Origin: Volvox africanus
Taxonomy: Eukaryota; Chlorophyta; Chlorophyceae; Chlamydomonadales; Volvocaceae
Direction of reading: 5' to 3'
Assembly (NCBI GenBank): GCA_030268105.1
Contig: BSDZ01000080.1
Span: 1,922,001-1,986,000 of the forward strand
DNA length: 64,000 nucleotides
Positions 4,269 through 61,000 of this stretch are shown here, one piece after another. The position numbers and the translations under genes were made by a program. Each line of letters starts with the position of its first letter. Positions within the stretch are counted from its first letter, which is position 1. Under the pieces are notes generated by a model. That model made no database searches and had not been told where the DNA came from. It saw only the letters and a program-made list of their open reading frames with translations.

Positions 4269-7200
4269 TCATTTGACCCCGCCGGTACCCGGTGTCGATC
4301 CACCCCGCATATGCATCCCAGACATTGCGCTGGATAAGCCCCCTGACGGAAACGAGCTTACGGACCCCGGCCCCACTTGTGAAGATAGTGCGGTCCCCTG
4401 CATCAGGGGAGTCCCAAACTCAGGCCATGACGGTGTCATTGCATTCCCCGCATTTGAATACGGCATAGCCTGCGCTGGCATGCCGTACATCTGCATCCCT
4501 GAAGTTGGCGGCGGCCGATACCCTTGCGGCATGTTCGGTGGCGGCATGCCGTACATTCGCATGCCGTAGGAACCCATGGAGGATGGATAATAGTAGCCGG
4601 GCGGGTAATCATACGGTGGCGGCGGCACGGTATTGCCATAGTAATTGGGCGGTATTGATACGGAAGATGGCAGGGGACCGCATATGCTGGGCGAGACGAT
4701 GGTCGACTGACCCATGGTTCCTCGGGTCGAGCTGTGACGCTGCGGTGGGCCGTGTACCTCCTCCCCATCGTCCTCCACCTCCGCCGCCATGCTGCCTTGC
4801 TGACCAACCCGATAAGACCCCACGCCAACGAGCGCACCGCCGCCATTTGGTAGCAGTTGCTGCTGTTGTGGGGCACTACGGACAGGGGCTGTCTGTGCTA
4901 CAGACACGCTATGTGTCGCAGAGGCTGACGACTTGCCGGACATGGCTGGCCTCGGTCCCAACGGTGCTGACGCCGCTGGAGCCGCCACCGGCACTGTCGC
5001 CGCCGCCTGCGGCAGTTTCCCAGTGACGGCAGCGACCGCGGTGCTGCCGCCGGTTGCACCATTACCAGCAACCACGGCACCACCGGGGTGGCCGCCGCCG
5101 CCGCCGCCCCCTGCCGGTGGCGGAAATAGCTGCCGCATGGCACTCGGACCCGGAGCCGGAGCCGACGCACCCATGCCGCCTGGAGCCGCGGCTATCATCT
5201 GCATCGGCACCGTTGGCGCCAGATCGCCATTTAAGCCCTCCGCGCCACGGCGGAGAGTCGCGGAGCCGACACCACCGCCACCGCCGTGTATGGGCGGCAG
5301 TGGCATTGTGTGGTGTGCTGTGGTTGTGTTCACCGGTGCAGATGGTGCCGGTCGCGCGCGGACGGGTGATACGGCACCGCTAGCGGAAAGGCCCATCGCG
5401 CCACGCTTATGTGGTAATGACATGGAGCCTCCGCCGCAACCACCACTACTGCCGCCGCCGGCAGCAGCTGCCGCAGGGGCTACCCCTGACGGACCGGTCG
5501 TGCCATGTGGGTATGCGTCCCCCCCCTGGCCCGGGGCCCCCACACTGTGCCGTGACTGCTGTGGGTACGGTGGGCACAGCGGGTTGAGAGCTGCCACTCC
5601 AGAGGCGGTTGGGATTGACGCGCTCGATAAGGGGTCACCGGCTGTCCAACAGTTCTGTGATACCGAAAGTGAAGGAAAGGGAGAGATATGAATGTTTAGA
5701 AAGGACACAAAAAGCAACAGCACCAGGGACCCGAATCCTTTTGGGTTGACCCTTCTATGTTGTACTGTTCAGCTGGGCACAACTCGACTCACCGCAGGTC
5801 GCATGCGGGGTTGCGTGGCGGCTCCACTCCCGGCCACTCCCTGTGCCTGTGCCTGTGCGTGCACTGCCGCTGCATGTGCATGCGCCACCTGCGCCTGTGC
5901 CGCCGCCTGAATCTGTTTGCTCCGTGCAAGGTCCATTCGCCGTTGCAGGAACTCCTGCGTAACTGCGCGCAGCTCCTGCCGGATCCCATCCACCGTAGAG
6001 CGGGGCAGTGGCAACGGCATGTCGTCCGCTGCGAACTGCTCGTGACAGGCCCGAGCAGCCTGGGATGCAGAAGGGCAGGAAGGGTTGCGGTGCGGAAACG
6101 TGAGCCTCGTACCTCGATCACCATGGACGCCTTTCGAACCGCACTTGACAGTAGATAGGTTAAGCTCTAGCCCCTAGGGGGCTTTCCATCACAAGACTAA
6201 ATCACACATGGAGGCCGGCGGGACAGAACGGACTACTTGTGCGCATTTGTCGGAGCACAAAACCAGGACAGTTTGTAACCGTGAACTAACATCACCGGAA
6301 TGAACTAATTTAATATAAATAGTATAGTATACTACATTATGCTATGCTATACAATGCTATGCTATGGTATGCTATAGCATTGTATGGCATAGCATTGTAT
6401 GGCATAGCATATCATAGAAAAGCATATTATAGCATAGTGTAGTACAGCATAGTATAGTATAGCATAGTATAGCATAGAATAGTACAGCATAGTATAGCAT
6501 AGTGTAGTATAGCATAGTGTGGTATAGCATAGTGTAGTATAGCATAGTATAGCATAGCATAGCATAGTATAGCATAGTATCGATCCCCCTACTTCCCGCA
6601 CAGGACCCGAACCCATGCACAGGGCGCTTCTGGGAGGAGAGAAAGGGAGAAAAGAAAAATGAAAGAGAAAGAGAGAGGGAGGGTAGCATTCCTTCACAAC
6701 AGGAATTATTATTTGTGCTACACAGGCAACACACGAGGACCGCTACAGGACCATGTTAGCCAAGCTTCCGTCCTTCTCGAAATTTCGACACGGAATCAAG
6801 TCCTCCTCTACGTCCTATTCCCGGTTTCGTCGGCTAACCTCCCCAATGCGCAGCTGAACCCTCAAGCCCTACCATGGAGCTTTCCATATCCACCGCACCG
6901 CTGCCGGGAACTCCTGACGACCCGCCAGGTGCCCCGGTCACACGGCCACCCTGCATCAATATCATCTGGCAATGTGATCCACCGCCACCCGAGACCTGGT
7001 CCACCGGGCCCTGCAGATTAGGGTTTGATGAAGTGCCGCCACAACTGGCAGCCCGTGGCGGCGGCGGTGACGCAGGCGGCATTGCTGCCAATGGGCCGGT
7101 TGCCGACTGAATTCCTGCCGTACCATTTGGCCGCATGCTGGGGGCAGCACCGGCGGTATGGGAACCGCAAGGGCCTGATGCCGTGAGGGGCCCGGGGCAA

Positions 7201-26783: not shown

Positions 26784-29384
26784 ATGCAGCTGCCGAAACT
26801 GCCCATTACAACTGATGCATTCCTTTGTGCAAGGAGTATCGGCAGGATGCCTAGCAAATCTTTCATATCGCGATGCTGGGGTCAGAAAGAAGCAACTCGC
26901 CGTCCTCAGCAGCGCGAGACAGTCCCGGTGGCGCGAGCGACCGCTCCACCTGGGATCCCGGAGCACCAGTCCCGAGAATGCATTAATTGCAATTACACGG
27001 CATTTAGAGGAACCACCACTTGCGAAAACTGTGGTCGGCCTCTGCGCGAAGAGGTGGTGAACCAGGAGCTGCTCGCAGCTGCCATCGAGTACATGGAGCA
27101 GCCAGAGGCATCTACACCTGACAAGAAAAAACCATCAAAAAGAAGCGATAACGCTGCAGATGTCTTGCTTGCGTATGACGATCGTTGCCGGCGGCACCGC
27201 GATGAAAGGACCCTGGGGCCCTTCCTCGGCCGAGGGCACCCGGAACGACCAGAGCGGGTGGCCGCCATAATGGCCAGGCTGAAAGAGTCGGAAATATTAA
27301 AACGGCAAGTTTCATACGGCGTGTAGGTTTGACACCCAGTTTGGCCCAGGGTGTGTGCTTTCAGGTGCGAAGCCGGCCAGCGCCGGCCTTTTCAACGCCT
27401 AAACTTAACACACCAACGTTCATCACCCGAATATTCAAATACCCCTAGGATTGTTAGATTCCTGTTATCTTCCTGTGTTGCGGCCTACTCTTTTGCGTTT
27501 GCTTCGTTTTCCCCGAAGGTGCAAACACCACAAAGGTCGCGAGGCCAAACGGGAGGAGCTGCTTGCGGTGCACGATGAGGCCCTTCTGGAAGCAGTGGAA
27601 CAGGCGACCAAGGTGGCAGCATTAGCAGCAGAGCGGGACAAGACGACCTGGTATGGTCCACTGGACGCGCAGCTGGAGGCGATGGAAGGCAAAAACAGGT
27701 GCGGCGTGCTTGGAGGAGGTCCGCCAGGCCGCCACGCCTCTCAGATAGAAGAATATGCTCTTATGCATGGCTTACGGTGCGACGTCGATGCTAAAAGCTT
27801 GGCGGCTTGATTTTTGGGGGACTGACCGACTGCCACGGCGTTTTGTTCCTCTGACGCTACCGCTCTGCCTACTTTTTCGGCCCTTCCCCACCGCACATTT
27901 TGAACCACAGTAAGCACATACAGGATGTGTATTTCAACTCCTCCACCGCCGTATGCGCCCGCCTGGCGGCTGGTAGCGCAGCGGAGGTGGCCCGCCGTGT
28001 GGTTTCCGGATCCGCCCGCCACGGCGCCGCGATCATCCGGCCCCCGGGTCACCACGCTGAGTCCTCTGTGGCCATGGGCTTCTGCTACTACAACAACGCA
28101 GCAGTGGCGGCTCGCGCGGCGCAGGCCGCGGGGGCGCGGCGGGTATTGATTATGGACTGGGACGTGCACCACGGAAACGGCACCCAGCGCATTTTCTACG
28201 ATGACGCCTCTGTGATGTACATGTCCACTCACCGATACGACCACAGCTGCTTCTACCCGGGTACCGGGGACGCGACCGAGGTAGGGAAGCGGGGCTTAGG
28301 GGCCGGTGGCTGCGTCCGCCGGCGCCTGGGGCTCTGTCGCTAAGGCCTAAGGCATTTCATTTCATTTGACTGATGAACCCGGGGGCGTGTCCGATGGGTC
28401 GTTCGGAATTTGGGTCGCGCGGGACGATGATGATGAGAGGAGGAGGGGGGTGGTAGTGGTGGCACAACGATTAGCGGTTGAAGCCGAGTCCTTTGTCCCG
28501 CCACACCGGTTCGTTGCTTGTCCCCATCCTTCCATCCTTTGCCCCTGACTCCCCATCGTTTGCGCCTCCTCCCCGACCTGTACCCTCTGGCTTCATGCCT
28601 CCCATCCGCTCCGGACCCTCTGGATGCGCCATCAACCTCCTCCCTCTCAACCCCGTCCCTCCTAACCCGCACACAGACCGGCTCCGGCCCCGGTGTTGGC
28701 TTCACCGTCAACGTGCCCTGGAACGGCGGGGGGGTTCGCGACGAGGACATGCTGGCCGCGTTCCGCTACGTCATCAGGCCACTGGCCGCCGAGTTCCGTC
28801 CCGACATCGTCATCGTGTCGGCGGGATTTGACGCGGCGGAGGGAGACCCACTGGGCGGATGCCGCATCAGCACCGCTGGCTTCAGCCACTTCGCCGCCAT
28901 GCTGTCCGCACTCGCACCCACCGTGATGCTCCTCGAGGGCGGCTACAACCTAATCGCCACCGCCGCAGCCACTGAGGCGTGTCTGCGGGTTCTGCTGGGA
29001 GAGCAGCCGCTGCCGCTGCAGGAGAGGCTGCAGGCGAGGGCGGGTGCGACGTCGCCGCAGCCGCAACCTTTGGACCCAGCCGCCGACCCGTGGATCATGT
29101 CGGGGCTCGAGGGCGTCTCGGATAGCGCTGTGGACTCGGTGTGCCTGGCGCTGCGGGTACAGTCTGAGTTTTGGGATGCAGCACGGAAGCATAAGGCACT
29201 GTTGGACACAGCGGTCGCGGTACGCCAGCAGCGGAAAGATCAGATATTGCGGCCGATATTCCAAGCATCGAAGAACACGCAATTGCCACCGGAAACAGTG
29301 CCACCTAAGCTACCACAGCCGGAGCCCGAGCAACCGCCTAATACCAGGTCTGAACCACAAGTGGGGCCTTGTGAGTTACTTTGA
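26784..29384 (+). CDS. Histone deacetylase with RanBP2 zinc finger (HDA15-like), copy 1
   Basis: Four exons: 26784-27304, 27519-27698, 27911-28280, 28677-29384; 592 aa. The start is the first ATG after an in-frame TGA at 26778. A RanBP2-type finger lies at C66, C69, C80, C83 (spacing CX2C-X10-CX2C), then a class II HDAC domain from about residue 125 to 480: LLAYDDRC, HPERPERVAAIM, PPGHHAE with the catalytic His pair, MDWDVHHGNGTQ with zinc ligands, FYPGTGDATE, VSAGFDAAEGDPL, and LEGGYNL with the catalytic Tyr. This order, finger then HDAC, is that of plant HDA15, a nuclear deacetylase that represses transcription. Intron 1 uses a GC donor (GCAAGT). Bases 27930-29161 are almost identical to the opposite-strand copy; both ends of the protein differ strongly from it. 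The final 75 residues are unlike the other copy, and a further 3' exon cannot be excluded. Confidence 0.9.
27930..29161 (+). repeat. Inverted near-identical tract, arm 1 (HDAC copy 1)
   Basis: 1232 bp matching 33624-34855 in reverse complement, with no indel. Two substitutions were found: 28738 G versus A (Arg/His) and 28814 C versus T (silent). It covers most of exon 3, all of the 396-bp intron 3 and the first part of exon 4, and starts and ends inside exons. Outside it the two genes differ sharply within a few bases. Confidence 0.95.
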
Positions 29385-29519
29385 CTTGTTTCCCATTTAG
29401 ATATCTTCGCCCGAGGCCCTATAACCCGGTAGGAGTTTGTGGGTCGACGCATACTGCCGTACCAGCCACCAGAGCCGAAGCCCAGCGCGCGTAGCAGCAC
29501 ATGTACAAATAGAAGGACT

Positions 29520-29524
29520 TGTAA
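29520..29524 (+). terminator. TGTAA polyadenylation signal of HDAC copy 1
   Basis: TGTAA 136 nt after the stop codon at 29384, at a plausible distance for a volvocine 3' UTR. Confidence 0.5.
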
Positions 29525-29583
29525 TATGTCTTTTTAGTGTTTAAAATTTTAAAGTGACTTTTCTAGGGTTGGTTTGTTATGAG

Positions 29584-29613
29584 GACCTCGGCGCAGCAGT
29601 TCTCGCCGAGGTC
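29584..29613. other. Perfect 10-bp hairpin downstream of HDAC copy 1
   Basis: GACCTCGGCG and CGCCGAGGTC flank a 10-nt loop, followed by a short T run on the plus strand. It lies about 60 bp past the presumed poly(A) signal. It could be a structured 3' element or part of an unrecognised repeat. Confidence 0.5.
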
Positions 29614-32600
29614 TGCCTTTTTCGGCTAGGCATTAAAAGCCATTGATGCCCTGGTCGCAGCTGTATGTCCCACCTGCAGGAGTGACCCACTAAAATGTCT
29701 ACAGCACAGCTCGGGAAATGACGACCAGGATTAGGATCCGTTTGCCAGCCGGGCAGAAGCTAAATTGGTGTGTGGCTTTGAGGAGAGGACTTGAGGACTA
29801 GATTTTTTGTAAACTGGTCTACATGAGGTTCCTGGTGTGCTGCTCGTCAAGTGTCTGTAGGAAGTGAAGGTGGGCCGGGACACGATATGCAGTGAACCCT
29901 GTCCTGCCCTGGCACAGGAAAGGGAAGATCTTGACAGCCGCAAAATCCTGAACCGTCTCCAATCAGACGGCATCTGTGTGTCAGGGTTTTCGCTATTACA
30001 TGAATACAGCGCTGGTACAGCGCCCTCGAATCCCCCCCCAATAACCCGCGCTGTTTACACGCGGAAGGCTCGTCGCCCTTGCCAGGTATCCCGCAAAGGC
30101 CAGGTGTATCCCGCATATTCTCCACCCAGTGGCCCAGTCTCCAGAGTTGACTCCTGGTCAAATATCACTGTCGAAAAACTCGGCAAGCACAGTTTTTCAA
30201 GTCCGCATACGGATACACACTTACCAATGTGGCGCAAAAAAAACCTTAAAAAGCATAACAAAATGTCATGCCTCTAAAACTCTACTCTCCCCCTGAACGA
30301 ACGTTTGCAAAGTCCAAGCCAGCAACTTATCACAACGTAGACTCGTCATTTTTTGCATGCGCAGAGTATCACGTCACATCGTTCGACACGTTGTCCCCTC
30401 CCAATAAGATAATGCTTATTGTGGGACGCATCTACGGGTCGACATCGGGGCAACAAAGACGCAGGAGCGGCCGGGGCCGGCGGTGGCAGCGACGATGCCA
30501 TCCCTGCATCTGCACGATCTAAACGCCCCCGTTGGAGCCTTCAGACCCACAAACAGGCCTTGCAGACCCAAGGCACGCCTAGCTTAACTCGAATGAATCT
30601 ACTACTCTTCAAACTTACGTATTGTTCGCCAAATGCAAACACATGCATACAGTGCTTTCCCCTCGCACCCCCAACAACGTTTCATAAAAGCACATCCTCG
30701 CACTCTACGCACACGCTATACCCAGTGACTTAATGCGACGGACAGATAGGTAAATGCCAGTCAGCGGGCGCTCCTTCAAGTGCGCGGCAGCACCAAGCAC
30801 CCCAAGACGGCACCCGATGGTGGCCACTCATCTCACCAAAGCACACTTCTATATATCACAACCTTCCTGGTATGTACGCTGCCCAAAGACATCCTTAACA
30901 GGCACCGACGTTCCAGCTTCCCTTCCTCCTTCCCTCCCACCCTACCCCGCTCTCTCATACGATGCACACGGCCATGAGATCTGTTTACTTGGCTGCTCAC
31001 AGACCCCAACTGACCGATGCCCCCACAATCTTGCAATAAATGCAAGATTGCAATCAATTTCGGCAACAACCGGAAACCGCTCTCCACTTGGGCAGTGGGC
31101 CGAGCGGGGCCGTATCCTCGAAAGCTGCGGTGAAGAGTTTGCGACAGCCCCCTCTTCCTCCATCAGGAAAGCGCAATCTAGCGACACCCAGAGCTATGGG
31201 CGATCGGGGACCATGTAAAAATGACCTGTCATCGGGACACTAATCAAGGACTGCCACTGGTGCAGCTGGGGCTGCGCCAGCGGCAATGTCAGCCGTGGCA
31301 GCGGCAGCAAGCACAACTGCAGCAACACCAGCATCTGGGCCCCTAACTGCACCCCATCCCACCTTAACGTGATGGGAAGAGCCACACCGTACCAGCACAC
31401 ACTTTAGACTCTTTTAACGGTACGTCGTTGGACACTACCACTGGTGTGCACAAGCGTCCATCCCTGCCCACTGCGTATGAAACTTGTCTACGGGCTTGCA
31501 CTTCCTTCCCTAATCGCCACCTCCACCTCCACCTCCACCACCATCGCCATCATAGCGGACCTGCAAGTAATTATATCCACATACATACAAGCGTGAGGTC
31601 TATAATGATGTTTTGATGTTTTGCCAGGGCGGGAGGGCGTACGGGGCCCGGGGCTCTGGGTGAAAAGCGTGTGAGCGCGCGGCGCCATTAGCAATAAGGA
31701 CTGAATTCACGCGCTTTGCCATACATGAAGTCCAAAAGTGCTGGGATGCGCCCTAGTAAGTGTACGCCTTCATCCACCCGTGCCTGCCCACCTCACAGAC
31801 GAGGAACTCTGAGCGACAGCGCTCGGCTCAGGATAGCCCACAAGCCAACAGCTGAACTGTCCCGATTGCGGCTGATACCTCCCGGTGGGTACCCGGCTAC
31901 AGCAGCCGGGTAGACAGCAGCTATGCATCTCCGAGGCCGATACTGGCGCCCTTCCTAGCATCGCAGTTCAGGGCGCCGCCTTATTCATTAATGCGCCCTT
32001 AGACACAGACGCAAGCAGAAACATACGCCCTTCGTGCTTCACTGACAGACGGACAGACAGACAGTCAGACAATCGTACAGGCGCGCACACACAGGCAGGG
32101 ACACGGGCACGCCAATGGATGAACGCAAAACGCAGCGCACGCAGTCCATCCCAGCACTCTTCCTTGTTGCCGTCAAATACTGCAAAGTATACGACACCAC
32201 CGTTCACTGTTCGCGCGCACATATGCTGCGAGCTTGTATATGTGTATACGTAGTTACTGGATGGGATCGGGGACAGAGGCGTCCATTTGTATCCACCCTC
32301 TTTCGGAGCCCCCAGGCGTAAGGCCCAGAGCGCTCTGTACGTGCCGTCTCTCCTTCCTTAGGACCGAGATTCTCCCGGGCGTATCACATACACACACGTA
32401 CACGTACAAGTACTCAGACACAGACACGTACACGTGCTCAGACACAGACGCATAGACATACACATGCACAGAACCGACACGCGCGCGCTCTGAATTTTGC
32501 GCAGCCAGGCATGTCGAGGTTGGGAGCTGACTCCGCCGCATGAAGGGCAGTCCTGCCAAGCCTGCCAGCCATGTCATGCCAACTCGGCCCCCTCCCTGGT

Positions 32601-33097
32601 CTACCGTACGCAGCGATACCATCACTCATCATCACCGACACGGCCACCAGCACCAGTACCATCATCATCACCACCTCTCGCCAATGGGCGCAGGGGCCCT
32701 CACCCTCCGCTAGAGACAGGGCAGGGGCTTCCCTCTCCCACGTCTCCCCCAGCTTGTTTCACAAGCTTATCACCTGCGACAACTCGTCTCCCTGTACCTT
32801 TCCTTTATCTTCTTCATTCGTGCGGCCAACTCAAGAGCTTAAGACGTCAGGAGCGCTTTCCAGTCCTTCGAGATCGGCTTCGGCGTTGCCTGACTTGCCT
32901 GGCCGTAGGAAACTACGGCTTCAACGCACTCGCGCTGTCAGCACGCCATACAGGCTGAGAGGACGGCGAGACACACAACGCACTTTCGGATTATTCAGCC
33001 GCCATTGGGACTATGACATTTGGAAGGTGATATACCCCAGCGTTTTGCATCGCCATCTTTGGTGCCGTTGGGTTCGTTAAACATCATTCGTTAGCCG
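29614..33097. other. Spacer between the two tail-to-tail HDAC genes
   Basis: About 3.5 kb without a recognised gene. Two places have coding-like composition: plus strand 30440-30560 (Gly/Ala-rich frame ending in Lys/Arg) and minus strand about 31345-31240 (Ala/Val-rich frame ending at a TAG at 31242-31240, with a possible acceptor before it). Neither could be linked to other exons. Near 32385-32470 there is an imperfect tandem of ACGTACACGT and CAGACACAGAC units. Confidence 0.4.
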
Positions 33098-36000
33098 TTA
33101 GCCATGCATATGCACATCGCTGCCCACAATGCAGGAATCGCCCAGCTGGTCCAACACCCCACCGCTGATGGATTCCATGCGCCGCCGCCGTTCCGCCTCC
33201 ATCTCCAAATCAGAAGCAGCGTAGAGGCTGTCAAAGCCCCGCCCTCCTGGGATTCGGAGCTCGACCTCCTGCTCTTCATCGTCATCCTCCTCATCTTCCT
33301 CCTCCTCGTCATCCATTCCGTGATGGTTCACGGCGACGGCGACGCCCAAAGCGGCCCTGTGGATGCCGCCACCGTTACTGGTGGGGAGCTGAGGCGGCGG
33401 CGGCGGCGGCGGCGGCAAAGCTGCCGCTGCTGTTGTCACCACCGTCAGCTGTGGCGGTGGCGGTCGCGGTGGCGGCGGTGCTTGCACGTGCCAGCCCCAA
33501 TGCTCCCGCGGCTGCAGCGGCTGCTGCTGCTGTTGCAGCCGCAACAGTTGGCGCTGGCGCCGTACCTCCACCGCAACCTCCATCGCAGCCAAATGCTCCC
33601 GCGCCGCCCGCCAAAATTGGCCTTGTACCCGCAGCGCCAGGCACACCGAGTCCACAGCGCTATCCGAGACGCCCTCGAGCCCCGACATGATCCACGGGTC
33701 GGCGGCTGGGTCCAAAGGTTGCGGCTGCGGCGACGTCGCACCCGCCCTCGCCTGCAGCCTCTCCTGCAGCGGCAGCGGCTGCTCTCCCAGCAGAACCCGC
33801 AGACACGCCTCAGTGGCTGCGGCGGTGGCGATTAGGTTGTAGCCGCCCTCGAGGAGCATCACGGTGGGTGCGAGTGCGGACAGCATGGCGGCGAAGTGGC
33901 TGAAGCCAGCGGTGCTGATGCGGCATCCGCCCAGTGGGTCTCCCTCCGCCGCGTCAAATCCCGCCGACACAATGACGATGTCGGGACGGAACTCGGCGGC
34001 CAGTGGCCTGATGACGTAGCGGAACGCGGCCAGCATGTCCTCGTCGTGAACCCCCCCGCCGTTCCAGGGCACGTTGACGGTGAAGCCAACACCGGGGCCG
34101 GAGCCGGTCTGTGTGCGGGTTAGGAGGGACGGGGTTGAGAGGGAGGAGGTTGATGGCGCATCCAGAGGGTCCGGAGCGGATGGGAGGCATGAAGCCAGAG
34201 GGTACAGGTCGGGGAGGAGGCGCAAACGATGGGGAGTCAGGGGCAAAGGATGGAAGGATGGGGACAAGCAACGAACCGGTGTGGCGGGACAAAGGACTCG
34301 GCTTCAACCGCTAATCGTTGTGCCACCACTACCACCCCCCTCCTCCTCTCATCATCATCGTCCCGCGCGACCCAAATTCCGAACGACCCATCGGACACGC
34401 CCCCGGGTTCATCAGTCAAATGAAATGAAATGCCTTAGGCCTTAGCGACAGAGCCCCAGGCGCCGGCGGACGCAGCCACCGGCCCCTAAGCCCCGCTTCC
34501 CTACCTCGGTCGCGTCCCCGGTACCCGGGTAGAAGCAGCTGTGGTCGTATCGGTGAGTGGACATGTACATCACAGAGGCGTCATCGTAGAAAATGCGCTG
34601 GGTGCCGTTTCCGTGGTGCACGTCCCAGTCCATAATCAATACCCGCCGCGCCCCCGCGGCCTGCGCCGCGCGAGCCGCCACTGCTGCGTTGTTGTAGTAG
34701 CAGAAGCCCATGGCCACAGAGGACTCAGCGTGGTGACCCGGGGGCCGGATGATCGCGGCGCCGTGGCGGGCGGATCCGGAAACCACACGGCGGGCCACCT
34801 CCGCTGCGCTACCAGCCGCCAGGCGGGCGCATACGGCGGTGGAGGAGTTGAAATAGCAATCCAGGACATGCGCACTGCCGGTTACGGAATCCGGCAAGAG
34901 ATAGGGAAGGGATAGAGCAGCAGGTCACAATACGGCAGCGGCAGGAATCACAAAAACCGATAACCAACATAACCGGCTTAACTGTGGATCCCACAGCGAA
35001 GGCTACCGCAGAGGGAGGTTACAGCAGAGGTTTACAGACCCAAGGGAGCAGATGGAGGGGTGCGTGTGTGTTTCGGGTACCCGCGTAGGTTCGCCCCGGG
35101 GACTCGAGGGGGAGGGAGTGGGGTACGTATCGGATGTATGTTTTCGGGTCCTTAGCTGCGAAACCCTAAAGAAACCTGGTTGGGCGCTCGGGCCGCGTGC
35201 ATTGAAATGTAAGATAAAGGAGCGCCTCTGCCGTACCTCCTCTGTGGCATGGACCACTCCTCGCCCATGTCGCTGTCATCGCCGCCGGGCCCTGCCGCCG
35301 GGCCCCCTGCTCCCTGCCGTGCGGCCGCGACCTGCGCCATCCTCGCCGCCTCTTCCGTCCGCGCATTCAGCTCCGAGACCAGGTCCACATCGTGCACCGC
35401 TACCAGCTCCTGCAGCGTTGCCTCGCGGCCAGTGATGCGGTCGAACCTGTGCAGCATGCGGCAGTCATTAGAAGTGGAGGAAAGCACTAAGCACGTAGCA
35501 CTAAGTGGATGAGGATGGGAAATAAGGCCAGAAGCGTCGGACCTATAGCAGGGCAAGGGATAAGGGGCATGGGACTTGCTCAGACAGGAAGTGTCCGGTA
35601 GTGCGGATCTGAGGGACAGCAGCGTCATGCTACCGACTTTAACCACCATGATGCAAATCAGCGAAGAGTGAGCCGCTCAGGGGTGGAGGTGGAGATTCGA
35701 CACCGGCAAAAACACGTGCAGGCATGCATGCAAATCCATTGTCATAAACTAATTACGGGTTACGACCCTATCTTCTGAAATTGCGTGGAAAAGGGCTGCT
35801 GCTGCTGCTACTACTACTGTGGCTCATAATTTTATTGTTATTGCTTGAGTGTTTAAATATCTATGTTCTATCGGTTTCGGTTTTATACAATAAGGAAAAA
35901 TGGATAGAATTGTTAGGGAAATGTATACTGAGAGCATGGATACAACTCTTGTTGTACTACAATTCTTTCCCGCGCCTGGACCGGACCGGACGTGAGACGC

Positions 36001-38599
36001 ACCTGGAGAGCAGACCCGCGCCGTGCAGCCGTGTCATGATGGCAGCCACCCGCTCGGGTCGCTCCGGGTGGCTTCGGCCCTGGTCGTGTGATAATCCCGG
36101 GCTCGTCTCCTCCAAGTGGGCCCTACATCGGTCATCGTACGCCAGCAACACGCCCTCACCGCGGCTGCCCCCGCCGCTACCGTGACGTTGCTGCTGCTGT
36201 TGCTGTTGCCCAGCCAGCATGCTCTGTACAGCACCCTCCAGCAGCTCCGGAACCACGACCTCCGTATCGACGGGGTGACGGCAGAAGCGACAGAGGGTGC
36301 CCCAAAACGGTCTGGTGCAGTTGACGCAGAAGTGTTGTTCATGAGGGTAGGCCGACGGGTACAGCGCTGGCGCTGGCGCTGGGGCCGCCGGAACTGTCGG
36401 CACCGACACTGTGAAGCCGGTCATGGCGGCACTCCCGAAGACCATGGCGCCTCCGTCCTCTTCTTCCTCCCCATCCAGTAGGTCCTCGTCCTCACCTTCC
36501 AGGACATCGTCTTCGCCGAAATCCCCGTCAAGCACGTCCTCCTCATCCAGCGCGTCCACCATGCTGGCCCCGTCTATCTCCCCATGTTCCTCTTCCCCAT
36601 GGCCCCGTCCTTGGGCGCCCATCTGCATCAGGATGCGATCCCCGCTGTTGTCCATATCAAATGGGCGGCGGTGGTAACCGACCATTGGGCTGACGCCGGC
36701 GGAGCCAGTCCCCAGACTAGCTAACGGTGCGCTGTGCTGGGCGTCGTGGTCAAGCTTTTCAGCGAGGCCATGGGGATGCCGACCCTCGGAGCCGCCACCT
36801 CTGACGACATCGCCGAGTATCGCCGTGTCCAATCCGAGCGGCTCTACGCTGGAGTAGTTGCACCGCTGCAGTCGGTGGTGTTGATCCGCGGGGTAGACGG
36901 CGGTCGAGGGCGGCGGCGGCGGCACTGCCGTGTCTCCACGCATGATTACGCGATCATGGAAGCCCACGTGATCACCGTCATCGTGCTGCACCTCCACAGC
37001 ATCCTCAAATTCCTCATCACCATCGGTGTCGCGTGCCGCCGCTTCTGCCGCCATGACAGTCGTCGTGTCAGCTTTCACAGCTCCGCTCCTGCAGTTTACC
37101 CCTCCTACCGCTTCGCAGCCTCCACTAGTAGGGCTGCTCTCCCCTTCCATCAAGTTAAACTGCGTCCCCGCCTCGTCCGACCCACGGGTTGTGCCAGCGC
37201 CGACATGACCAATAGGTCCACGGCCGCCACAGACGGCAGCAGCGGCTGGTGCAGCACCACCATCGACCTCAGTGTGCAGTTGCATCTGCCGCTGTGGCAG
37301 ACACACCTCCTCACCGTTCGCGGTGCCGCCCTCGCCGCTGCTGCCGCCGCCGCCGCCGCCAGCAGCAAGGGACAACCCTGGAAATGTTGAATGGAAAGAA
37401 GCGGCACTGGGGCTGACCGAGCCGACGAACTGCACAGGCGATGAGATGCGTGCCTTTCCGTCCGTTTGTAGATAGATGGGCTGTTGCTGGTGGTGTCCGA
37501 CAAAGTGTTGCCGGTTAAATTGGTGATCGACATTCTGCGTGATGCTGCGTTGCGCCGCGGTAGAAGCGCTGCCGCCACCACTGCTCGGCAGGGGCGTGTG
37601 GATGGTGGTCGCGCGCGTGCGGCTGCTGGCTCCCACGCCAGCGATGGCGATAGGTATGGCGGGCGACGTCCCCGCTGGGATCACTGCGTTGCACATCAGT
37701 AGTGGAAGCGAGGCTGTACGAGTGATGTGGTCGGAGAGGGAGCCCGTTGGGGACGTGCCCAAACCAACGACGGCATTTTCGCCGTGGCCAGCGGGGTGGC
37801 AGCCTGAGAGCCCGTAGCTGATAGTCGTGGCGCTGCCGTGGCGTGGCCGCGTGGGAAACGCCGCCGCCGGGGCCCCCATGCCGTGCGGCGTGTACTGCTG
37901 CGGCTGCGGCGTTGAAGGCCTTCCCGTCGCGATTGGGATTGCGATGCAGTGCGGCTGTGGGGGCGACACGCTCTGCGTAGGGAATCTGCCAGACTCCGCG
38001 GCGTCTTTCTCTCCAAAGCAGCTTTCCTGACGTGGCGTACTTTGTGCTGCCGCCAACAGCACCGCGTCCGCCGCCGCCGCCGCGCTGTCCGGGACTGAAC
38101 CCTGTAGGAGCTCCTCTCGTTGAAATAGGTGTACCGAGACCATGAGGTGCTCGTTGCCGCTCACGGTGGCCTGCTCATAAGGCATGACCGGAAAGCCCGT
38201 CATAACTGCGGCACCGCGGGCATTGTCACTGTAGATAACAGAGGCGCTGACTGGGTCCAGAGGGGACATGCTATGTGCGCCGAACTGTGGAAAAGATGCG
38301 GAGAAGCGGCCCAGCGCTGGACGATCGGCAAGGGGCGTCGCTGCTACCCCTGCTCCACCTACCGCTGCTGAGTCGCTGGAAGGCGAGGGGCTGGCTGTGC
38401 CGTCCAGGTGTGCAGCGTTAGTTCCAGCCAGCTGCGCAAAGGCGTGGCTGTCTGAGTTGCGGGAGGGCGATGCAGGTGTGCTGCACTCGAAGCCCCCTGG
38501 ATGTAAGGTGGACGCGTTTGTAGCCAAGGCAGGCTCGTAAGGGCTGCCTGCGTGATGATATCTAACGTGCAATGGAATTGCTGAGGACCCGAATACCAT
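33098..38599 (-). CDS. Histone deacetylase with RanBP2 zinc finger and long N-terminus, copy 2
   Basis: Four exons: 38599-36003, 35446-35237, 34874-34505, 34108-33098; 1395 aa. The ATG at 38599 is preceded in frame by TAG, and a TTTTGCAG acceptor just upstream suggests a 5'-UTR intron. The first ~740 residues are low-complexity (Ser/Ala/Gly/His-rich, with an acidic run at about 690-725). A RanBP2-like finger (CVNC, then CRFC) follows near residues 750-770, then the HDAC domain at about 825-1250 with the same catalytic residues as copy 1. The end is Pro/Ala/Gln-rich with an acidic patch. Intron positions and phases equal those of copy 1, proving paralogy, and exon 3 (370 nt) and intron 3 (396 nt) have equal length. 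Intron 1 here has a normal GT donor. The gene diverges from NOL10 across 970 bp. Confidence 0.9.
33624..34855 (-). repeat. Inverted near-identical tract, arm 2 (HDAC copy 2)
   Basis: Partner of 27930-29161; every position pair sums to 62785. The substitutions are at 34047 and 33971 on this arm. The centres of the two arms are about 5.7 kb apart. Confidence 0.95.
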
Positions 38600-55000: not shown

Positions 55001-58000
55001 GAGGTTAGGTTTCGACGTTCGGGAAAGAGAAAGAGAAAAAGATGGCGGCAAACAGGTGTGAAGAAGGTGTGAGAAGAGGGAACACCAGCAACCAAATCGG
55101 GTCCGGATGTACAAGGTCCGATACCATCCTGTTCATGACAGTTGGATACAGTCTGCTGCGGAGGTGGTCAGGAAGCAACGGACTCAGTCCTATGCAACTC
55201 CGCATAAGGCCCTTTGCCCCTGCCATTGACGCTGGTCGACGCTGATTGATGATCATCACTGAACTCCGAAGTTGTCCCCCTAGGGTGGGGATAAGGGGTT
55301 AAGGGGGTCGACGGACGCACATGGACGGACGCACCAGTCGGGGTCGAACAGCACCAAGCGATTGGCCCCTATGAGATTGAGCCCGCAGCCACCCGCCTTA
55401 GAAGACAGCAAGAAAGCGAACTGACGCTCAGCGGGGTCGTTGAAAACCTGGCGACAAAGGATGTGATGGTGGTGGTGGTGGGGAGGTGCGGGGAGGGGAA
55501 GGAAACAGTTAGGGCAGGGCAGGGCAGGGCAGGGCAGGGCAGGGCAGGGCAGGGCAGGGCAGGGCAGGGCAGGGCAGGGCAGGCCAGGGCAGGGCAGGGC
55601 AACATGTGCACATACCACTTATACATACACGCTCACTAACAAGTGCAAGCTTCGAATGCCCCCCCCTGCCCAACCCATTTATCACCTTGACCAACTTTTG
55701 TCGCTTGTTGATGGTCGTCGTGCCGTCCAGGCGCACGAACGGGTAGCCCCGCTCCCGACACAAGTGGGCGAACAGATCCAAAGTTGAGGTGTAGTTGGAA
55801 ACCAGCACGATCCTGAGGGGGCAACCGCCTCGAAGGATTTGGTTTTGAAGCTTCAGGAGGAAAGACAGCTCGTCCCTAAGGATTCTGAGCTTAGGAGGGA
55901 GCGTTGTAATGCTCGGGATCACTTTGCGCTCGCAGCTCCATATCCGATTTTTAAAACGCAGGAATGCTATTTCGGAGCATGATCACTGGAGATGCCTTTT
56001 CAACCCTTAAAATCTTATTAAATGTTGATCCTTAAGAGCTTTTTAACGTTAACGCTTACACGTTAATGAAGTATATAACGTTTTAGATTTCATTCCCCTT
56101 ACACTTGCCAACCTACCTGTCGTTCGTTTCCGAGTACAGCACGTGCAGCATGCGGGAGAGAACTGCCAGCTTGCCGGATACCGCCTCCCAGCCTGCTGCC
56201 ATACCGCCCCGACCCACTCGGCCATTGTCGAAGAGGCCAGGCGGGAACAACGACCCCACGTCCTGCAGACGGGAGGAAAAGGCGGACACATGTCGGGGTT
56301 CTTTAAATGAGGCACCACACGGACCTTTAAATTGATCCCTGGTTTTGGGGTTTAGATTAAGGCTTGCCCTTCCACACGACACGCTGTCAACGATCTGCAA
56401 AAACACTTAAAACCCTGAAACCCTAAACCCCAAATCACAAACTTTAAAAACGTTTAAATCTCTAAACTCTGAAAACCATCAGACACATACCTCGAAGCCA
56501 TCCGCGCGGCCGCCATCTCCATCCTCCCCGCCGCCACCCCCCAAGGCCGCCGCCGCCTTGCTGTGCACCGCGTCGTAAATGAGTTTGGGGTGGTTGCAGA
56601 GCTTCTTCAGGGAGGTGATGGCGGACAGGACGCCACTGGTGCGGCCGTTGAGGACTCTGCGAGCGGCTTTACTTTGGAGGAAGTGGCCGTAGAGCTGGCG
56701 TTGAAGATCCGTCAGCCGGCAACACACCACTTCGATGACCTGAAAGGGATTGTTGCTGTTGTTCAAAAAGCGGAAATCGGAGAGCAAAACGCGGAGAACG
56801 AGTGAGCGATGGTGGGTGCAATCACCTTAGTTGTTATGTTTTTGCCTGTAACGGCAACAACAGGTGAAGACGAAACACAGACAGAAAAAACACAATACAG
56901 GACAGGACAGGACGGTATAGAATCGTGAAAAGTGGCAGGTGTGCAGGCACCTTTGGTGGCAGGTGTTGGCTGAGCAGCTTGTTAGTTCGGCGCAGAATGA
57001 AGTTGTTGGTCAGTCCGCTCAGCTCCCGACTCCGTTCCTCACCGAGAACAACCTCCTCGGGGGCCGCGTCTGGCTCTCGACCCGCGAGGATGGGCAGCTC
57101 GTAGTACTTCCGGAACTGCAGAAGCCAGACAGGCAGACGGACGGACGGACGTACAGATGGACGATTGGAGAATGGACAGATAGACAGATAGAAAGATAGG
57201 TAGGTAAACAGACAGTTGGGCAGACAACATAAAGCTTTCCAAAAATTGTGATCAAATGAGTCCCCCACAGCTCGTATACGGCTGCGTGAGAGGGGCCAAC
57301 CGGGGCCCCCCATCCCCTAATGGCCCAGGTGATTTCGGAAATACGATGATCTGAGGTCCCCATCTGAGGACGACGAGGAACGACGGTTTCGGAGGAAGGT
57401 GTCCCCATGGCTTCATGAAAACAAGGATAATACATAAACACGAGCAGAAAACAAACATAAAATAGTAGTGGTAAAAATAATAATTATTATTATAACACTA
57501 ATAATAAAATATAATAATATAATAATATAATGATATAATAATATAATTTTGATGTTGTTAGCGATGTAAAACATACACACACACACACACACCTGAGCAG
57601 GTAGCCCCAGCACCCCCGGGTTGCAGAAGTCAACCATCGCGAAGAACTCGTCAAGATGGTTCTGCATGGGAGTGCCTAATCAGGAAACGGCGGTGGCAAC
57701 GGTGGAGGGTGTATGTGTGGGATGCCTTATTAGGAAATGGGGATGGCAAATACGGGGACCTGGGGAAGGGCGGGTTGCCAAAACCATTTCCCTCTCCTGA
57801 ATGCATTTGTAGGGCTCACCGGACAGCAGCACGCGACGCTTGCACGACAAGTTGTCGAGCGCCTGCACGTGGGGCAGTAGCAGCAACAGCAGCAGTAGCA
57901 GTAGCAGTAGGAGGAACAGGCGGGGCGGGAACCGGAGCACCAACGACAGTGTTACACCAGGGGGATGTGTGTGTGTGTGTGCTTTCAAACAGAGTCCCGA

Positions 58001-61000
58001 GGGAATTTGAGAAGCCGAAGCGCAGTACTGCAGTAAATATATGCGTGGGAGGGGGGAAAGAAGAACCCGTACATATCATACATAGATCCGTGTGCGTGTC
58101 TGGTGTATGCCCGCATTTCGACATGGGCCGCCGAAACCGTCACACGTCCTATGATGACCTGCTGCTGGCAATTTCTCCATCTTTCCCAGAGATACAGGTT
58201 CAAGCGATTCGGCCCAACATACGAGAGCATACGACACTTGAAACGGGGCACCGTTTCCCGAGCTTCCTCTTCCCTCACACAACCCTTCGAGCGGTGTCTG
58301 AGACCTCTGAAGCACTCGGGAAGGGAACTTACTCACCCTGTTGGTTAACGTGGCATCGTTCTTGAGACGATGTGCCTACATGCGCAGAGAATGCATCGCA
58401 GCAACGCACAGCATTGTAAAGCACAGCAAAGCGAGCTAAAGCGTATAGGAAGGCGGGATGGGCCTCGAGTAAGGCGAAGATGCGCGAGGGGAAGGGGGCC
58501 GCGGACGTAAACGACACTTAACAGAGTTTAGAGTGCAATCAGGATGAAGAGTGCCGGAGGAACGAGTAACGGAGATAAGCAGACACCATCCAATCAGACA
58601 CACACACGTGTTCCTACTTCGCACGACTAGTCACGCGCCGACGAAGCTCCTGATGGTTCCTCTGACCCACGGATCCTCTGCTGGCCTTCTCAATACTCGA
58701 TCCTAAACACTCCCAACACATAAGCAGTTAGACAGACACACCCAATCATCCCCCTCCCACCTCGTCGCACAAAAGGAGGTCGCAGGCATGGGGCACCTGG
58801 AAGCGCTCGGCGTGCAATCGGAATGTCTCGTAGCTGATGATCAGGACCTGGATGAAAGGGGGGAGTTGGGTGGGGCAGGGGGGAGTTGGGTGGGGCAGGG
58901 GGGAGGTGGGCGGGGCAGGGGGGATTTGGGTGGGGCGGGTGGGGAGTCGGTGGGGCAGGGGGGAGTTGGGTGGGGCAGGGGGGAGTTGGGTGGGGCTGGG
59001 GGGAGTTGGGTGGGGCAGGGGGGAGTTAGGTGGGGCGGGTGGGGAGTAGGGTGGGGCGGGTGGGGAGTTGGGTGGGGCAAGGGGGAGTTGGGTGGGGCAG
59101 GGGGCAGGTATGAAGCAACTGACCAGGGAACCCGGCGGGGGGGTGAGGGGGTATGGGAGGGAAATGAGGGGGGAAGGTGTTGACACTAACACAACATATA
59201 CGGGTGGGGTGGTCCGGGATGATGTTGGAGCAAGCCGCTTGAAGCCCGGCGAACAGGGTGAGGGGGCGGCTACAGCCACAGCCACAGTCACAGCCACAGC
59301 CTGGGTGGACTGGACTGTCGCTTCCCTTGCTGGGAGCTTAAGCGCCAAAACGCTAAACAACCCCGAGTGCCCCCCCATCCACCTTGTAAACATTTGAAGG
59401 GTGCAGGAACATCCCGATGTTCGCCACCACATCTTCCCTGGAGCTCTCGCACATCGCCAAAACCTTCAAACGGCCCTGCACAGTTATTACTTCAGCCGGT
59501 ATGTCAGTTGTTCGTTTGTTGATTTGTTTGGACGTAAATCTTTTCAGTCCTCACCGAACTTGTACACCGTACGGTACGCCGTATCTCATCACCCATGCAG
59601 GAGACCACGTATCCCCTGCGGCCCTCCTCCTGCCTCCCTCCCCTGTGGGAACGCTGTACCTGCAACCACTTGGTGCACTCGTTGTCCCAGTTCGAAACCA
59701 AGCTGGTGGGGCAGACGATGATGGCTCTGCGGGCGATGGGGCAGCCTCCCAACAGGGTGTGGCCGCTGGTGAGCAGGGTCCACATGAGGGTGATGCCCTG
59801 GAGGGTCTTCCCCAAACCCATGTCGTCCGCAAGAATGCAGCCTGCGCGATAACTCAGTGGCATGGGTTTGGCAGGATGGCGGGAGAGTATTCCCATCATC
59901 ATCATATTAATAATGAGGAGGATAAAAATGATAATAATAATGGAATGGGTGGACTTAAGCAAAGCAGTGCACAGCTACTAAACCCTTTCCCCCACCAAAA
60001 CCCGATCTATCTTCCGCAGCCACCTCTTTCTCTTCCCCTTTCCCTTCCTCTTCCCCTTCCCCTTCCTCTTCCTCTTTCCCTTCCTCTTTCCCTTCCCCGC
60101 ACCCCCGCCCCCTCCTGGAGCCTTCCTAAGGTCGAGTCCTTGACCTTTCCCATCCACAGCCAAGGTTCCGCCCCTCCGCTCCCACCCTGTCTGCCTTCCA
60201 GTCTCTGTCCAGTCACACAGTCGAACATGAACTGCACACCCTCGCGCTGATGCGGTCGGAGGAAGCGAACAAGCATGGTATCTACGACAACCGCATCGCT
60301 GGCGGCAGCGTCGCTGCTACCGACAGGCGCCGCCGCCGCCTCTTCCACTGACCCATGGGGTGCTTGCCATAGCACCAGGGGCTCTATACCCTCCGGAAGG
60401 GCGGGCTCCTGCGTCAATCGAAGGCGTGAGTGTAAAGTGGCGTATAACCGTTACGTAGCCATTATATAATCAAATAATAACTATAACCGTTCGCAGGATG
60501 TTATGGGTCAAGTTTTTGGCTTACCGGAACGGGCGAGGGCGGGGCGGGTGGCTCCGAAGGAGGTTCCGGAGCCGCTGGCAATGTGGGGTTGGGCGGCTTC
60601 AAGGTCATCATGGGGATGGGAAGGGGTGTGGAGCTCCCCCAGGGAACGAAGTGTCGCCGCGCGGCCAACTTGCGGCGCAGAGCCTGTTTAGGACACGAAA
60701 AGGTGTGTGCGTGTGCGTGTGTATGTGTATGTGCGCGTGTGTGCTTAGGGGGGGTTGTAGCGGTTCCAGGGTCGCGGGGCTTCCCGAGGTGAGCGTGTTG
60801 ACACGTGGCGCGGACAACCGACACCAGCGACACCAAAGACGCGGGGCCGCCGGTCCAGAGAGAGAGAGAGAGAGACCCGCATCCCTTCTTTCTTATATAA
60901 AGAGCCATCCCTGCGCCCGTCTCACCACATTTTCCCTTCGCCGCACGGATCCCTCGTCGCTGTCTCGTACCTCCCCACCCCACTCCTCTCTTTCCTCACC

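Follow-up and report, generated by a model that had tools for sequence, protein, structure and literature searches.

Evidence for recurrent gene conversion confined to the core of an old inverted deacetylase gene pair in Volvox africanus and its relatives

Concerted evolution confined to one segment of a gene pair has been described in mammals, where the linked copies BMP8A/B, DDX19A/B and TUBG1/2 are reported to have been homogenised, over segments that include introns, in every lineage examined for more than 100 million years (PMC2720389). The same report calls segment-confined concerted evolution that is kept in separate lineages rare and, in mammals, unexplained (PMC2720389). The present analysis concerns a 64,000-nucleotide stretch of the green alga Volvox africanus (the window; contig BSDZ01000080.1, positions 1,922,001 to 1,986,000), which holds two convergent genes, A on the plus strand and B on the minus strand, each with four exons and encoding 571 and 1395 residues, respectively. 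To judge from their sequences, both encode class II deacetylases of the HDA15/HDAC6-like kind, and the inverted pair that they form is old. It is very likely that a core block of this old pair, and only that block, has undergone recurrent interlocus gene conversion. The pattern is one of long-lived, segment-restricted concerted evolution, a kind that is already known.

The shared tract in V. africanus

Self-BLAST of the window returned a single long match in inverted orientation, between 27923-29161 and 34862-33624; the tract considered here is its ungapped portion, 27930-29161 against 34855-33624. Its two arms differ at 2 of 1232 bp, without a gap, and the differences are exactly the two that an earlier, sequence-only reading had found by eye; that reading had also correctly placed a complete 396-bp intron, identical in the two genes, inside the tract and the first 19 nucleotides of exon 3 outside it (Table 1). 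At the position of the first difference, 12 other volvocine A/B rows carry Arg (11 rows) or Cys (1 row), so that the His encoded at 34047 most likely arose in gene B, and most probably later than the last copying at that site. The genome of the Thai strain, 1101-NZ-11 (NZ11 below), was published as 141.0 Mb in 129 contigs (PMC10291315), and the assembly searched here comprised 140,993,249 bases in 126 contigs. The whole-assembly search gave five matches, namely both arms and three weak matches (69-74% over 104-159 bp), and all 5 of the 5 candidates were scored. Two copies of the block, 4462 bp apart, were thereby located, and no third close copy was found in the 141-Mb search, in which match counts are lower bounds. 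Within the spacer (29162-33623), no second A/B repeat was present among the 60 longest self-BLAST matches of the window.

The tract contrasts sharply with its surroundings. Codon-aligned nucleotide identity was 52.8% before the tract (173 codons) and 50.9% after it (74 codons), compared with 99.8% inside (278 codons). Synonymous divergence (dS, NG86 method) over the same codons was 1.9 and 2.6 in the two flanks, both near saturation, versus 0.005 inside, indicating that the genes are old and the identity of the tract is young. With an even spread of the 356 mismatches over the 1575 aligned coding positions, the probability that two or fewer fall in the 834 positions of the tract would be about 10^-137. 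In a global alignment, 60-bp blocks contained 59-60 matches inside the tract and 16-36 outside. Two blocks depart from this, with 46 matches each: one in exon 2 (27540-27599), the other containing the left edge. Intron 2 of A and that of B could not be aligned. The proteins can nevertheless be aligned before the tract, with 67 of 171 residues identical, and because the flanks align as proteins, they represent old homologous rather than unrelated sequence. The strong divergence of the flanks claimed by the sequence-only reading was thus borne out, whereas its statement that the proteins align only in motifs was not. Its proposal of recent interlocus conversion over the catalytic core gains support from the identical intron and from the synonymous divergence inside and outside the tract, a comparison it had suggested, and is by far the best reading of the V. 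africanus tract.

Core and flanks in related species

Relatives were compared as proteins of deposited gene models. Volvocine rows were chosen by name among the best 120 of 6734, 1089 and 7975 protein matches, many of the listed rows being unnamed. The first splice models of exon 1 in both genes were dropped in favour of donors supported by orthologues. The first models underlie the protein-search queries, the PF00850 scores, the structure search, the residue-identity counts for core and flank and the comparison of A/B motif identity; the mended models underlie the trees, the approximately unbiased (AU) tests and the column counts of fixed differences and private residues. Among the matches listed, A-type genes were found in V. 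reticuliferus, Pleodorina starrii, Astrephomene and Tetrabaena (the last two, Astre_A and Tetra_A, as partial records), and B-type genes in V. reticuliferus, Pleodorina, Astrephomene, the Japanese strain of V. africanus (Vafri), Gonium, Edaphochlamys and C. schloesseri. No named A gene was among the matches listed for Vafri, Gonium, Edaphochlamys or C. schloesseri, and neither gene was named there for V. carteri or C. reinhardtii, which is not to be read as absence from these genomes. Both genes were available from four species, V. africanus NZ11, V. reticuliferus, Pleodorina and Astrephomene (8 of the 13 volvocine rows), and fixed-difference and private-residue counts refer to these four only. 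The Pleodorina A and B records differ in strain prefix (PLESTM, PLESTF). The locus numbers Vretimale_4232/4234 and Agub_g2169/g2170 only suggest that A and B are linked in the relatives.

Within each of the four species, the A and B cores were found to be nearly identical (227/228 residues in NZ11, 212/213 in V. reticuliferus, 221/228 in Pleodorina and 228/228 in Astrephomene), compared with 39-47% identity in the N-terminal flank. Among Volvocaceae, the same flank is 72-88% identical between A orthologues and 77-92% identical between B orthologues. In the core, identity to the paralogue exceeded that to the nearest orthologue of either gene, all 13 volvocine rows being compared, in each of the four species (0.996 versus 0.969, 0.995 versus 0.962, 0.969 versus 0.904, and 1.000 versus 0.890). 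When the core is extended to the residues RVQ, A and B agree in 278/279 columns in NZ11, 260/264 in V. reticuliferus, 246/273 in Pleodorina and 273/279 in Astrephomene. In the three Volvocaceae, fixed A/B differences occupy 0 of 258 core columns (to RVQ) and 20 of 122 N-terminal columns. Residues that a species has in both its genes, and that none of the other three species has, number 7, 9, 12 and 41 in the core, the last figure being inflated because Astrephomene is the sole member outside the Volvocaceae, and 0, 0, 0 and 6 in the N-terminal flank.

The trees of the two regions conflict. The core tree joins A with B by species (V. reticuliferus 98/94, Pleodorina 95/93, and Astrephomene with A and B identical), whereas the flank tree splits A from B within the Volvocaceae (support of 99/99 for the A clade and 98/97 for the B clade). 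The AU test rejected a Volvocaceae A clade for the core (p 9.8e-84) and, for the flank, all four species pairs (p 1.6e-4, 9.6e-8, 1.3e-4 and 3.5e-3). Given this conflict, and the rejection of the reverse groupings by the AU test, at least one event is indicated in each of four lineages. Recurrence in at least four lineages is thus suggested, the evidence being DNA for one of them and protein for the other three. The sequence-only reading had held that arms closer to their own orthologues than to each other would speak against conversion; on proteins, the opposite was observed in every species with both genes, and A-with-A grouping was rejected. Its suggestion that repeated conversion maintains a uniform active site between diverging ends agrees with the pattern seen here. 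By residue counts alone, the last NZ11 event would be placed after the split from the Japanese strain, as A and B of NZ11 differ at 1 of 228 core residues, versus 7 of 228 between NZ11 B and the Japanese-strain B.

The edges of the block were also compared. On the left, NZ11, Pleodorina and Astrephomene share the codon at which the block begins (before YF), which in NZ11 is 19 bp downstream of the end of intron 2; in V. reticuliferus B this edge is unreadable because the gene model is without the beginning of exon 3. On the right, the genera differ: the block ends at RVQ in NZ11 and V. reticuliferus, before it in Pleodorina and beyond it in Astrephomene. Beyond it, B-type tails remain with B-type heads: the WGW tail motif is carried by all 8 B rows and by none of the 5 A rows, two of the latter being partial.

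The duplication probably predates the split of Goniaceae and Volvocaceae, because the flank rejects Astre_A and Astre_B as sisters (p 0.0035). This age is probable rather than proven, since the A clade that includes Astrephomene and Tetrabaena has support of only 68/96 and involves long branches and partial rows. The split itself has been dated at about 247 million years ago (297-190) (PMC11007952).

Gene models, composition and neighbouring loci

The predicted products match the Hist_deacetyl domain (PF00850) from end to end, with 312.7 bits for A and 305.7 bits for B against a cut-off of 27.9. Compared with solved structures, gene A matched HDAC6 chains at the top, with HDA15 fifth. Its motifs PPGHHAE, DWDVHHGNG, AGFDA and EGGYN align with HDAC6 chains, gene B is identical there, and all four lie inside the tract. 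These motifs presumably supply the catalytic His-His pair, the Asp/His/Asp zinc ligands and the Tyr, and both A and B are predicted to be catalytically active. Outside the tract are both tails, a CxxC...CxxC motif and the N-terminal part of the deacetylase fold. Plant HDA15 carries a RanBP2-type zinc finger; searching the head of gene A, in which the CxxC...CxxC is present, against Pfam gave no RanBP match and zinc-ribbon-like matches below threshold only.

The gene B model agrees with the deposited record VaNZ11_013205 across all 1210 residues of that record, which is labelled partial and ends within the tract (33624-34855). For gene A, no deposited model was among the matches listed. The duplicated block may have confused the annotation.

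Table 1. Positions in the window of the two genes, the tract arms and the differences between them
Feature	Position	Strand	Remarks
Converted tract, gene A arm	27930..29161	+	1232 bp, covering intron 3 and the greater part of exons 3 and 4
Converted tract, gene B arm	33624..34855	-	reverse complement of A arm, 99.8% identity
Spacer between arms	29162..33623	.	4462 bp: gene ends and convergent intergenic DNA
Paralogue difference 1	28738 (A, G) / 34047 (B, A)		Arg in A, His in B
Paralogue difference 2	28814 (A, C) / 33971 (B, T)		synonymous Ile codon
Gene A exon 1	26847..27304	+	CxxC-x10-CxxC (26979-27032), start of deacetylase fold; start codon inferred
Gene A intron 1	27305-27518	+	donor GCAAGT, apparent GC-AG; inferred from V. 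reticuliferus orthologue Vretimale_4232
Gene A exon 2	27519..27698	+	
Gene A exon 3	27911..28280	+	19 nt at start outside tract
Gene A intron 3	28281..28676	+	396 bp, same sequence as intron 3 of gene B
Gene A exon 4 and stop	28677..29384	+	29162-29384 outside tract
Gene B exon 1	36003..38599	-	long low-complexity, acidic N terminus; CxxC-x8-CxxC (36281-36328); start of deacetylase fold
Gene B exon 2	35237..35446	-	agrees with VaNZ11_013205
Gene B exon 3	34505..34874	-	19 nt at start outside tract; agrees with VaNZ11_013205
Gene B intron 3	34109..34504	-	396 bp
Gene B exon 4 and stop	33098..34108	-	33098-33623 outside tract, with WGW tail motif

The GC content of third codon positions (GC3) is 0.82 in the tract (229/278), 0.58 in the A flank (171/294) and 0.75 in the B flank, counted from its zinc finger onwards (271/363). 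These values would point to copying from B to A, but were rejected as evidence of direction because an unpaired paralogue, C, shows the same rise in its core (0.84, 174/208, versus 0.71, 154/218), and the cores of two further deacetylase loci have GC3 of 0.78 and 0.75. Intron 3 has a GC content of 0.624, versus 0.477-0.571 in the other introns of A and B. It was not retained as unusual, since 9.4% of 1026 overlapping 396-bp windows elsewhere reach 0.624. In Pleodorina, four of the seven A/B core differences are clustered at DHSC...ATE / DGGN...ASE, Pleo_A having DHSC...ATE like both Volvox genes and Pleo_B having DGGN...ASE. This one short stretch may be an older A/B difference, which would hint at an A-to-B event in the Volvox lineage.

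A third deacetylase paralogue (L003) was located on the same contig at 1859084-1862242, about 88 kb upstream of gene A, and also has a CxxC...CxxC motif. It is not homogenised, its best protein pieces being 59-66% identical. The HH of GHHAE is replaced by AQ across an inferred splice, and AGFDA by AGFGA; by these residues, L003 looks like a catalytically dead relative. Short tandem repeat arrays are found in the window at 6319-6580, 55511-55601 and 58857-59109, the first also with inverted matches.

Mechanism, alternatives and known systems

Recurrent conversion of the core could proceed through ordinary repair. Strong constraint on the catalytic exons would keep the A and B DNA similar enough for ectopic repair, and a break in one arm would be mended by copying from the other, about 4.5 kb away, presumably by a route without crossover. 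Copying would halt where homology ends, on the left at the border of intron 2 and exon 3 and on the right at the fast-changing tail, which would be the simplest account of the edges. Each event would restore the identity of the core and so enable the next. The block would then persist, re-homogenised separately in each lineage, while the N-terminal part and the tail drift apart.

Besides the inflated Astrephomene count, several observations weigh against this account. Intron homogenisation is seen in one genome only, the relatives being represented by protein models. The Pleodorina core to RVQ agrees in those 246 columns only, support for NZ11 A with B in the core tree is only 74/76, and the AU test on the core did not reject a grouping of NZ11_B with Vafri_B (p 0.124). 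After RVQ, only 1 of 64 tail columns shows a fixed A/B difference in the three Volvocaceae, because the tails vary in every row. Astre_A and Tetra_A are placed on long branches in the trees, and the absence of WGW from both means less because they are partial. Finally, the GC3 of the tract favours neither GC-biased conversion nor a direction, since paralogue C rises likewise.

Inverted arms can recombine and thereby invert the intervening DNA. Crossovers of this kind, flipping the spacer back and forth, might be the main exchange, with conversion as a by-product. Such crossovers would, however, swap the tails, contrary to the distribution of WGW, and although selection against swapped tails could hide events, this explanation is unlikely. 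A single recent copying event in this strain, with no recurrent process, is slightly less likely again: the 2 differences in 1232 bp of the one genome with DNA evidence would fit one event, but three other species have shared cores specific to each of them. Had there been one event only, in a common ancestor, A would be free to group with A, a grouping that the AU test rejects, and the single-event explanation is largely refuted at the protein level.

It is more improbable still that assembly or short-read polishing overwrote genuine differences between the two arms, although reads can be misplaced within repeats. The assembly was polished using Pilon with 150-bp reads; however, it had been built before that with Canu from about 197x PacBio coverage, using 20- and 30-kb libraries that exceed the arms and spacer together (6.9 kb) (PMC10291315). 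The reading frames also continue over both edges into flanks that match orthologues, and the same pattern is found in the three other species. Purifying selection alone, to which the catalytic motifs of the core and its good alignment with distant deacetylases might point, has almost no chance of being the cause, as it is refuted for the V. africanus genome by the identical intron and opposed by the near-zero dS and by within-species paralogues that are closer than orthologues and share private residues.

Why the core should be converted again and again is a further matter. It is conceivable, though we consider it rather doubtful, that the pair predates the split of Goniaceae and Volvocaceae, perhaps also that of Tetrabaenaceae, and that its core has been re-homogenised ever since because identical cores under two regulatory heads were selected. 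Such selection would perhaps act because A and B form dimers with each other, or can replace one another within a single complex. Selection for identical cores is offered as a hypothesis, and constraint together with proximity would explain the recurrence equally well.

Recurrent conversion of the core, extending beyond one genome, makes the finding larger than first described, and trees built from the deacetylase domain alone will mis-date the A/B duplication. The pair is compact (arms 4.5 kb apart) and occurs in culturable algae; proteins have been deposited for at least four species, in one of which the breakpoints are base-exact. Whether conversion persists through lasting homology or because identical active sites are favoured can thus be tested directly. 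The A/B pair was not described in the literature searched (titles and abstracts, with few subscription papers covered).

In closely linked inverted duplicates of Drosophila, whole coding regions, rather than one domain, are reportedly homogenised. Those of Hsp70, Hsp82, alpha-amylase and trypsin resemble A/B in linkage, inverted arrangement and concerted evolution, and hexapod engrailed/invected resemble it in conversion within the conserved domain of a gene pair, but are homeobox genes (PMC3199776). Like A/B, the Dlx genes of Capitella teleta are inverted tail to tail, with conversion confined to the most conserved domain and the adjoining intron, and with the rest diverged; that conversion is described for one species, with no evidence reported from two other annelids having two Dlx genes, as against four lineages for A/B (PMC3199776). 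The mammalian BMP8A/B, DDX19A/B and TUBG1/2 pairs share with A/B the two linked copies, conserved mosaic borders, a diverged remainder and the lack of an explained reason (PMC2720389). A rise in GC was taken as support for conversion in the mammalian pairs, whereas in Volvox it fails the paralogue C control, and the homogenised parts of the mammalian genes are described as having no obvious overlap with protein domains, whereas the Volvox block holds the catalytic motifs (PMC2720389).

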